From Oerskovia rustica (lineage in GTDB: Bacteria > Actinomycetota > Actinomycetes > Actinomycetales > Cellulomonadaceae): a stretch of DNA of 64,000 nucleotides. The translations under genes and the position numbers were made by a program. The stretch's first letter is position 1. Each line of letters opens with the position of its first letter. Under the pieces are notes generated by a model. It did no database searches. It worked only from the letters and a program-made list of their open reading frames with translations, and had not been told where the DNA came from. Below are positions 28,471-31,049 of the stretch, one piece after another. The stretch spans positions 25,172 through 89,171 of the forward strand of contig NZ_JACSQQ010000015.1 of assembly GCF_014836555.1 (NCBI RefSeq). The letters run 5' to 3'.

Positions 28471-29208
28471 TCAGACCCGGCGGAACTCCAGGTCCGTGAT
28501 GCCCCGGCCGGCCGCGTGGCCCTTGTTCTCGAAGCTCGTGAGCACGCGCCCCTCGAAGCGCGGCGCGACCGCACCGACCCCGTGGACGTTCTCGAACGAC
28601 GGGTTCGCGCCGACGACCTCCAGCATCTGGTCCGCGTACTCGGCCCAGTCGGTCGCGAGCCGCCACGTCCCACCGGGACGGACGACCCGCGCGGCGAGCT
28701 GCGCGAGCTCGGGCGTCACGAGGCGGCGCTTGTGGTGGCGCGCCTTGTGCCACGGGTCGGGGAAGAAGATCCAGAGCTCGTCGACCGAGGCCTCCGGCAG
28801 CATCGTCGTCAGGACCTCGGCCGCGTTCGCCTGCACCAGGCGCAGGTTCGTCAGACCTCGCTGCGTCGCCCGCAGCACGGTCTGCGCGAGTCCTGGCGTA
28901 TAGACCTCGACGGCCAGGAAGTCACGTTCCGGGGTGGCCTCGGCCGCGTTGACCACGGCCTCCCCCAGGCCCGACCCGACCTCCACCACGAGAGGAGCCG
29001 TCCGCCCGAAGGTCGCGGCGACGTCGAGCACGTGAGCCGGGTCGACGGACGTGCGCGCGATCGACCGAGGGACGTCCAGGACGAACTGGTCGGCGTGGTC
29101 GTCCCACGCGCGCTGCTGGCGAGTGTTGAGGCGGCCGCTGCGGCGGACGAAGGACACGATGTCGGTACGGAAGCCCTGCTCGCGGGCCTCGGAGAGGGTC
29201 TCGGGCAC
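28471..29208 (-). CDS. trmB: tRNA (guanine-N7-)-methyltransferase
   Basis: TrmB makes m7G46 in tRNA using S-adenosylmethionine. The 245-residue protein has the SAM motif VVEVGSGLGEAVV, then EVYTPGLAQ, the catalytic-region FFPDPWHKARHHKRRLVTPE (key part FPDPWHKARHHKRR), and the C-terminal SFENKG segment. All are characteristic. The GTG at 29208 is 6 nt after TAGACT. It is monocistronic. Confidence 0.92.
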   Translation of the reverse strand: MPETLSEAREQGFRTDIVSFVRRSGRLNTRQQRAWDDHADQFVLDVPRSIARTSVDPAHVLDVAATFGRTAPLVVEVGSGLGEAVVNAAEATPERDFLAVEVYTPGLAQTVLRATQRGLTNLRLVQANAAEVLTTMLPEASVDELWIFFPDPWHKARHHKRRLVTPELAQLAARVVRPGGTWRLATDWAEYADQMLEVVGANPSFENVHGVGAVAPRFEGRVLTSFENKGHAAGRGITDLEFRRV

Positions 29209-29251
29209 CCGCCCAGTCTAGGCGGGCGCCCGAGACCCCTCCCGCGGAGGG

Positions 29252-30589
29252 TCAGACGTACTGCGCGTACGCCGGCAGGTCGAGCTGACCGTTGCCCGAC
29301 AGGCCGATGACGACGACCTCGGGCTCGGTGAGCGTGCGCGCGTACGCGATCGCCGCCGCGACCGCGTGCGTCGACTCGGGCGCCGGGATGATGCCCTCCG
29401 AGCGGGCGAACTCGAGCCCCGCCCGGAACGCCTCGTCCTGGTCGATCGCGATCGCGTCCATGAGCCCCAGGTTCACGGCGTGCGAGACCATGGGCGACAT
29501 GCCGTGGTAGCGCAGACCGCCCGCGTGGATGGCCGGCGGCACGAAGTCCTTGCCCAGCGTGTGCATCTTGAGCAGCGGCGTGAGCCCAGCGACGTCGCCG
29601 TGGTCGTAGCGGTACTCGCCCCGCGTGAGCGACGGGCACGCCGAGGGCTCGCACGCGACGAGCCGCGTCGTCGTGCCCTCGCGCAGGTTGCGCCCCAGGA
29701 ACGGGAACGTGAGCCCTGCGAGGTTGGACCCTCCGCCCGCGCACCCGAACACGACGTCGGCGACCGGCTCCCCCGCCTCCTCGAGCTGGACCAGGGCCTC
29801 CTGACCGATGACCGTCTGGTGCAGCATCACGTGGTTGAGCACGCTGCCCAGCGAGTAGTGCGCCTGCGGGTCCTGCGCCGCGACCTCGACGGCCTCGCTG
29901 ATCGCCATGCCGAGCGAGCCCGTGGTGTCCGGGTCGCTCGCGAGGATCGCACGGCCCGACGCCGTCAGCTCCGAGGGCGACGAGTGGCACACGCCCCCGT
30001 AGGCCTCCATCTGGAAGCGGCGGTACGGCTTCGAGTCGTACGACGCCCGCACCTGCCACACCTCGCACGTGAGCCCCAGCAGGGCTGCGGCCATCGACAG
30101 CGAGGCCCCCCACTGCCCCGCGCCGGTCTCGGTCGTGAGCCGCGTCGTGCCCTCCATCGCGTTGTAGTACGCCTGCGCGATCGCCGTGTTGGGCTTGTGC
30201 GAACCGACCGGGCTCACGCCCTCGTACTTGTAGTAGATCCGGGCGGGCGTGCCGAGCGCGCGCTCCAGGCGGTGCGCACGGATGAGCGGCGCCGGCCTCC
30301 ACATCGCGTAGATCTCACGGATCGTCTGCGGGATCTCGATGTAACGCTCGGTGCTGACCTCCTGCTCGATCAGCGCCAGGGGGAACAACGGGGCCAGGTC
30401 CGCGGGCACCAGGGGCTCGAGCGTGCCCGGGTGCAGGTGCGGCGGGACGGGCTCGGGCAGGTCCGCGTTCAGGTTGTACCAGTGCGTCGGGACGGTGGAG
30501 GGGATCTCGACGCCGAGCGGCTCGAGCGAGCGAGCGGTCGGGGCGGCAGGCACCGAGGGTGCCGGGGCGGGGAGGGGGGACGTCGTCAA
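29252..30589 (-). CDS. Tryptophan synthase beta chain-like protein, TrpB2 type
   Basis: This PLP enzyme joins serine and indole to give tryptophan. The 445-residue chain with a long N-terminal extension ([13 protein letters not shown] and an Ala/Pro-rich start) is typical of TrpB2, which often works without TrpA. The PLP lysine lies in [10 protein letters not shown] and the phosphate loop is [12 protein letters not shown] chose TTG 30589, 6-7 nt after GGAGAG. Upstream in-frame starts would put that ribosome site inside the gene. A trp leader peptide upstream indicates attenuation by charged tRNA-Trp. Confidence 0.85.
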
Positions 30590-30655
30590 GGAACTCTCTC
30601 CTTCGTGGATGGGCACGTGCGGGGGCAACGTTCCGGGCGATCCACTCCGGGAGAC

Positions 30656-30765
30656 CTGCTGGACCGCCCTTCGTCGGGCTCGGTCAGCACGCCACAGCGT
30701 CCGACCGTCAGCGGTCGGGCCACCAGGTGTGTGCGGTGAGCAGGTTCACGGGCAGACCATAGCCC
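30656..30765 (-). promoter_or_regulatory. trp attenuator (leader with competing hairpins)
   Basis: After the TATGGT promoter box and leader peptide, three pairings are possible. Hairpin 1:2 is CCGACCG-CTGA-CGGTCGG (30701-30718, with the stop codon in its loop). Hairpin 3:4 is GACCG...GGG/CGGTC (30662-30685). Alternative 2:3 pairing is CGGTCGG with CTGACCG (seven pairs including one G-U). A ribosome stalled on the Trp codons at 30720-30725 would cover segment 1 and favour 2:3. There is no T-run after 3:4. Confidence 0.7.
30708..30749 (-). CDS. trpL: trp leader peptide
   Basis: A 13-codon ORF reads [13 protein letters not shown] with two adjacent Trp codons (30720-30725), three codons before the stop. 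The GTG start lies 6 nt after TATGGT (30756-30761), so it is probably the first codon of the mRNA. It precedes trpB2 by about 120 nt. Trp-Trp in such a short ORF before a tryptophan gene is the hallmark of attenuation. Confidence 0.8.
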
Positions 30766-30819
30766 GCGGGGCGGCGAACTGTGAAGCGCGTCTCACGGAC
30801 GGCCGTGCGCCGGGGACGA

Positions 30820-30860
30820 CGAAGGCCCCTCCCCGCGGCGACGCAGGTGAGGGGCCTTCG
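30820..30860 (-). terminator. Terminator after tRNA-Lys
   Basis: A 12-bp perfect stem (CGAAGGCCCCTC, 30820-30831, with 30849-30860) and a 17-nt loop lie immediately downstream of tRNA-Lys on the minus strand. Confidence 0.8.
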
Positions 30861-30863
30861 AGG

Positions 30864-30939
<76 letters not shown>

Positions 30940-31049
30940 GCGAGAAGAAACACTACTGAACCGGCCCCCCGGAGACAAATCAGGGGGCCGGACAGGGCTG
31001 TGACCTGCGCGACAACCCGCTGCGCGGGCCGCCGTCGGTGCCGCGCGTG

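Follow-up and report, generated by a model that had tools for sequence, protein, structure and literature searches.

In Streptomyces lividans TK24, the leaders trpL1, ahead of trpE, and trpL2, ahead of trpS, have been mapped as leaderless, and trpL2 is described as having no U-rich stretch (PMC8079986). Attenuators are predicted before trpB1EDGC and trpB2A of Corynebacterium diphtheriae (PMC1262725), and for Corynebacterium a trp leader is also reported ahead of trpB1 (PMC5784534). The leaderless polycysteine open reading frames (ORFs) of mycobacteria (Canestrari 2020) are associated with translation attenuation, as cited in PMC13236596. The Corynebacterium ilvBNC genes are stated to have a leader peptide (PMC10272879), formed without a ribosome-binding site (RBS) according to the title of Morbach 2000 (listed in PMC4046766), and in C. 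glutamicum roughly one mRNA in three is given as leaderless (PMC3890552).

The window, the whole stretch of Oerskovia rustica DNA that was analyzed, is 64 kb long and contains a gene for a TrpB-like PLP enzyme (trpB2) preceded by a short ORF with tandem Trp codons (WW). In bacteria little is known about the role of TrpB2, a second, stand-alone tryptophan synthase beta. We predict that the region ahead of the gene is a cis-acting, ribosome-mediated attenuator through which the supply of charged tRNA-Trp sets expression of the orphan trpB2 (probability about 0.78). The features are:

30780..30785, minus strand, -35-like element TTCACA, with an 18-nt spacer to TATGGT; the pair matches 9/12 of a sigma-70-like consensus
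30756..30761, minus strand, -10 box TATGGT, exactly 6 nt before the leader GTG
30708..30749, minus strand, leader ORF, probably translated from nucleotide 1
30720..30725, minus strand, tandem Trp codons TGGTGG within the leader
30701..30718, minus strand, hairpin 1:2, CCGACCG/CGGTCGG, with the stop codon inside the loop
30681..30707, minus strand, pairing 2:3, CGGTCGG with CTGACCG, seven pairs including one G-U, duplex of -12 kcal/mol
30657..30689, minus strand, hairpin 3:4, TGCTGACC(GA)GCCC / GGGCGGTCCAGCA, without a U-tract behind it
30594..30604, minus strand, trpB2 RBS GAAGGAGAGAG, upstream of TTG 30589
29252..30589, minus strand, trpB2 (TrpB-like PLP enzyme), with its TTG start at 30589

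The leader runs on the minus strand for 13 codons, from GTG 30749 to a TGA stop ending at 30708, and the gene of the TrpB2 family begins about 120 nt beyond the stop. An earlier note on this DNA had described the 13-codon leader 6 nt after TATGGT, its tandem Trp codons, hairpin 1:2 at 30701-30718 and a 2:3 pairing of 7 bp. The window coordinates bear out each of these, with one G-U among the 2:3 pairs; the 3:4 hairpin that it placed at 30662-30685 is present but longer. TTCACA/TATGGT is the sole sigma-70-like site in 30500-31000 (mean 0.0 in 50 shuffles). On both strands of the window the leader is the sole tandem-Trp ORF of up to 25 codons, and it is one of two short ORFs that start 5-8 nt past TANNNT. 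The trpB2 product scores 692.6 bits against NF009057 (cut-off 366) and 589.1 bits against TIGR01415 trpB_rel, over the curated cut-off of 518.85. The nearest named relative is Oerskovia turbata (96%), in line with a genome of Oerskovia. In an Rfam scan tRNAs alone pass the gathering score and the leader has no such match, and a riboswitch or other Rfam element was rejected for lack of a match.

The predicted element resembles S. lividans trpL1 and trpL2 in having a short leaderless ORF that contains one to three Trp codons and is followed by hairpins, in a high-GC actinobacterium, and it resembles trpL2 in having no U-rich stretch. The S. lividans leaders, as described, differ in their targets (trpE and trpS), in the U-rich terminator of trpL1 and in their peptide sequences (PMC8079986). 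The trp attenuators reported for Corynebacterium and Streptomyces also have tandem Trp codons and complementary strands shared by antiterminator and terminator; unlike the locus here, they serve biosynthetic operons and have poly-U terminators (PMC1262725, PMC5784534). In C. diphtheriae a trpB gene is likewise first in the controlled operon, a likeness at the level of the gene name (PMC1262725, PMC5784534). The mycobacterial ORFs are leaderless, short and rich in the end-product residue, which is Cys rather than Trp, and they belong to cys operons (PMC13236596). Corynebacterium ilvBNC shares a leader peptide formed without an RBS (PMC10272879, PMC4046766) and differs in its branched-chain residues and its ilv operon (PMC10272879).

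The earlier note had called the arrangement unusual, a view that does not survive the mapped leaderless Trp leaders of S. lividans (PMC8079986) and the attenuators predicted in C. diphtheriae (PMC1262725). In the literature covered, which leaves out most subscription journals, a search for a leader at a TrpB2 gene in these genera found both 'trpB2' and 'leader peptide' in PMC1262725 alone. The kind of device is known and gains new members and a new target here; an orphan TrpB2 as the target, and the transfer into Rhodococcus discussed below, look new.

TrpB2 is present in 74 of 200 genomes of the family, and the upstream DNA was examined for 70 of these (four were not fetched). The leader lies ahead of trpB2 in 21 of the 70: in 7/7 Oerskovia genomes (g1), 10/10 of g8, which we take to be Cellulosimicrobium, 2/2 of g20, which is Sanguibacter by identity to the named loci L020 and L022, and 2/4 of g25. 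It also precedes trpB2 in three erythropolis-type Rhodococcus loci (L017, L018 and L019). Tandem Trp codons occur in 22 of the 24 leader-bearing regions, and the other two, both in g25, have a single Trp. The leader peptides include VTLLPTHTWWLDR in Rhodococcus L018, VTHPSVTPWWPAA and close forms in g8, and VITHSARLWWPTR and VITHSVRLWWPTR in Sanguibacter. In g25 (L122 and L123) the peptide is VILLTALDGWRHH, with one Trp, and hairpin 1:2 is still strong; these two loci offer a natural experiment on the sufficiency of one Trp codon. Conservation of the WW codons and of the pairing in relatives was a point on which the earlier note had staked its reading, and the codons and hairpin 1:2 are both conserved. 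The trpB2 RBS is GAAGGAGAG in 7/7 Oerskovia and in the three Rhodococcus leader regions.

The occurrence of Trp codons was also assessed by a scan blind to them, for ATG or GTG 5-8 nt past TANNNT opening 4-25 codons within 320 nt before a TrpB2 match. The set comprised about 125 regions at 66% TrpB2 identity or more (at 65.5% or more there were 128 distinct ones, of which a pair could not be scanned in full for want of length). The 24 distinct regions that matched all carry Trp codons, and the remaining regions gave none. The spacing from TANNNT to the start is 6 or 7 nt in all 24 leader-bearing regions, which puts the leader start at, or 1-2 nt from, the predicted transcript end in five genera and is good comparative evidence for a leaderless leader. 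Among 37 loci with less similar TrpB2 the scan found two ORFs without Trp, in L085 and L095, and one with four Trp, in L090, and among 28 new class-level loci L214 alone, with no Trp. That the leader is a chance short ORF within an ordinary 5' UTR is hardly credible: short ORFs are common and most of the TrpB2 genes examined have no leader, but conservation across five genera and the outcome of the Trp-blind scan contradict this explanation. The leader is missing from 49 of the 70 family TrpB2 genes examined, so a TrpB2 gene can do without it, and relatives with and without the leader are natural controls.

A degenerate 23-mer covering the sequence after the Trp codons has 18 exact matches in the 200 family genomes (10 in g8, five in Oerskovia, two in Sanguibacter and one in G082, at G082:C28). 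The 17 matches in g8, Oerskovia and Sanguibacter all lie before trpB2, and two further Oerskovia genomes have a one-mismatch copy of the core in the same place. Among 394 genomes drawn from the class, the 23-mer is exact in this genome and once in G679 (L236), where no leaderless ORF was found. Other tandem-Trp ORFs before TrpB2 occur in L091 and in L068 (Rhodopseudomonas); the latter was set aside as probably due to chance because it is missing in L064, the other Rhodopseudomonas. Plasmid-borne TrpB2 copies appear in eight records (best identity 76.5%), whose named features are TrpB-like enzymes.

The four-Trp locus L090 belongs to a gammaproteobacterial MAG. At 2753-2920, before trpB2, it has TTGACA-17-TATCTT, 7 nt, and then a leader, MLFNLTRNGAWRWHWWFSPVGAFV, ending in a stop. 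A hairpin, AAAAAGCCCAC/GTGGGCTTTTT, follows the leader and runs into a U-run; a simple terminator scanner did not report it. Judged from its sequence, this trpB2 is preceded by a textbook Trp attenuator whose predicted start is also close to the promoter, and it would represent, in another phylum, an independent case of a Trp attenuator ahead of TrpB2.

For the Oerskovia element, we predict that RNA polymerase would start at or adjoining GTG 30749 and that a ribosome would load at the 5' end of the transcript without an RBS. At low Trp the ribosome would stall on the WW codons; since strand 1 of hairpin 1:2 starts zero or one base past the Trp codons, the stalled ribosome would cover strand 1 and free strand 2, which would pair with strand 3. 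With ample Trp the ribosome would run on to the stop codon that lies in the loop of 1:2; strand 2 would be covered or would refold on strand 1, and 3:4 would then form and trpB2 expression fall.

The hairpins were compared with 2000 dinucleotide shuffles per sequence. For 1:2, the number of shuffles as good was 1 in L002, 29 in L017, 8 in L018, 9 in L104, 105 in L022 and 3 in L122, and this hairpin exceeds shuffled sequence in every lineage. For 2:3 the numbers were 205, 365, 801, 42, 914 and 278 in the same order, which is within chance in most lineages taken singly. For the 3:4 region they were 84, 622, 77, 1700, 126 and 413; the isolated 3:4 hairpin is strong in Oerskovia (0/200 shuffles). 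In the window sequence alone, 1:2 is far beyond chance, 3:4 marginal and 2:3 within chance. Mutually exclusive 2:3 and 3:4 alternatives can be drawn in all lineages, with energies near chance in most.

Structural register, not MAFFT alignment columns, was the basis for counting pairs; a column-wise covariation count was dropped, since from genus to genus strand 1 moves by one base and 3:4 moves with loop length. In 1:2, 146 of 154 cells are paired in the 22 WW sequences (148/161 if the L122 row is included, which was omitted as misregistered by one base), and two of the seven positions show two-sided changes (A-U to G-C and C-G to U-A). In 3:4, for which 19 of 23 rows were counted (L122 and three rows from Rhodococcus fell outside the register), the two-sided changes are A-U to G-C and U-A to G-C. 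Between g8 and Oerskovia the same position differs in all four strands, A-U-A-U to G-C-G-C, so that 1:2, 2:3 and 3:4 are all preserved. The strand order and this concerted change favor 2:3 and 3:4 as paired states. Against them, stem changes within a genus tend to disrupt pairing and do not restore it (L006, L007, L108, L113 and L098).

Sequence constraint extends beyond the peptide. Among the seven Oerskovia the mean pairwise identity rises from 0.672 ahead of the promoter and 0.713 within it to 0.977 over the leader ORF and 0.995 between its stop and the 3:4 end; it is 0.930 between 3:4 and the RBS, and third codon positions of trpB2 give 0.839. The values for g8 are 0.661, 0.713, 0.969, 0.929, 0.921 and 0.872, respectively. 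Identity remains high past the ORF; the whole element is conserved and not the peptide alone. These data bear on another explanation, in which a translated leaderless leader acts by itself, 1:2 slows ribosomes or protects the RNA, and 2:3 and 3:4 arise by chance in a GC-rich transcript. Such a role would fit the strength of 1:2 throughout and the near-chance scores of 2:3 and 3:4 individually. We regard it as improbable, given the near-invariance beyond 1:2, out to the 3:4 end, in both genera and the joint change of the strand-1 and -3 purine and the strand-2 and -4 pyrimidine between g8 and Oerskovia.

A leaderless, Trp-codon-sensing attenuator of trpB2 is therefore the reading that we retain, and as a prediction it is well supported by comparison. 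The comparison supports the predicted promoter, start position, Trp codons, hairpin 1:2 and position before trpB2; the case for a 2:3/3:4 switch is weaker. Very probably the leader signals tryptophan scarcity to the cell. What the earlier note had inferred stands as to a leaderless Trp leader before TrpB2, through the conserved WW codons and 1:2; its claim of full attenuator logic does not, as there is no terminator-like site, no U-tract in any lineage, and a 2:3 pairing no stronger than chance in most.

The output step is the least certain part. A scan of the leader region found no terminator-like site, and a U-tract after 3:4 is absent in all five genera; with no U-tract anywhere, we weighed occlusion of the RBS against Rho-dependent or U-poor termination. 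Two further pairings are relevant:

30635..30669, minus strand, possible pairing 4:5, GGGCGGTCC with GGATCGCCC, nine pairs, incompatible with 3:4
30597..30654, minus strand, possible hairpin 5:6, TCTCC..GTGGAT / ATCCAC gaa GGAGA, which would hide the trpB2 RBS

In the occlusion variant, 2:3 would free strand 4 to pair with 5 and thereby open 5:6. A translational output of this kind, with 5:6 hiding the trpB2 RBS and WW stalling relayed via 2:3 and 4:5 to open it, is possible and is put forward tentatively; it would be close in kind to the mycobacterial leaderless polycysteine ORFs. It is consistent with the lack of a U-tract in every lineage and with 3:4-to-RBS identities above those of the trpB2 third positions in both Oerskovia and g8. 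A hairpin covering or abutting the RBS, and a 4:5 pairing that undoes it, can be drawn in each lineage, with stability mostly within chance. Pairing 4:5 reads GGGC-GGUCC/GGAUC-GCCC in Oerskovia versus GGGU-GGUCC/GGAUC-ACCC in L018, one two-sided change, read by eye. Set against this, z-scores over nine sequences range from -2.38 to +0.33 for 4:5, its energy being within chance in most lineages, and from -2.8 to +1.33 for 5:6 (L002 -0.89, L006 -2.8). In equilibrium folding of the 22 WW sequences the RBS stays largely paired in each of three states: no ribosome, ribosome at WW, ribosome at the stop. The probability of an open RBS shows no consistent difference among these states, and on this ground a simple equilibrium RBS switch is kept only as a rival reading.

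With a transcriptional output, 3:4 would be a U-poor terminator, or the completed leader would expose the RNA to Rho, and stalling would prevent either. The leaderless trpL2 before trpS in S. lividans, described as having two hairpins and no U-rich stretch (PMC8079986), is a precedent, and the strong isolated 3:4 of Oerskovia speaks for it as well. This output too is possible and is put forward tentatively; against it stand the missing terminator-like site and a 3:4 region in g8 that is weaker than most shuffles. Since 5:6 and 4:5 are mostly within chance and the RBS is mostly paired in every state, occlusion and Rho-dependent or U-poor termination are left as near-equal rivals. Supposing that the attenuator is real, action of 3:4 by occlusion of the trpB2 RBS falls just short of even odds, and action by Rho-dependent or U-poor termination is plausible at below even odds. 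The fullest version is unlikely: a five-helix relay (1:2, 2:3, 3:4, 4:5 and 5:6) that would open the trpB2 RBS ~120 nt downstream, as a terminator-less translational Trp attenuator that, together with its gene, passed as one unit into Rhodococcus from a Cellulomonadaceae-like donor. An attenuator that five genera share and that lacks a terminator would be of help in deciding how U-poor attenuators work in high-GC bacteria.

The descent of the gene was examined in a tree of 50 TrpB2 proteins that we selected from the collected loci; L019 has an odd cyanobacterial taxonomy label in the tree output, which was ignored. The Oerskovia-like copies of L017, L018 and L019 fall within a 39-row clade (100/99) of Cellulomonadaceae-like and other sequences, and five other Rhodococcus TrpB2 copies, all without the leader, lie in a separate supported clade. 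This separation suggests that trpB2 and its leader probably entered Rhodococcus jointly. The leader label needs at least four changes on the TrpB2 tree, and the leader may have a single origin.

The trpE locus of this genome (L206), presumably located after a hisI-like gene, has no ORF of up to 25 codons with two Trp in the stretch examined, and the same holds for L001 and L013. Here, then, it is trpB2 that carries the Trp leader, not the gene of the main pathway. This suggests that TrpB2 is called on when tRNA-Trp charging falls and points to a role in supplying Trp, for example from indole.

A strong GC hairpin at 30821-30859, close upstream of the leader promoter, directly follows tRNA-Lys(CTT) (30939-30864) on the same strand; it is probably the terminator of this tRNA, with few scattered T behind it. 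On the other side of trpB2, a large inverted repeat at 29196-29238 separates it from the next gene, which starts at GTG 29208 and which we take to be trmB. The loop of the repeat contains TAGACT, 6 nt ahead of GTG 29208, which is likely another leaderless start, inside a hairpin.
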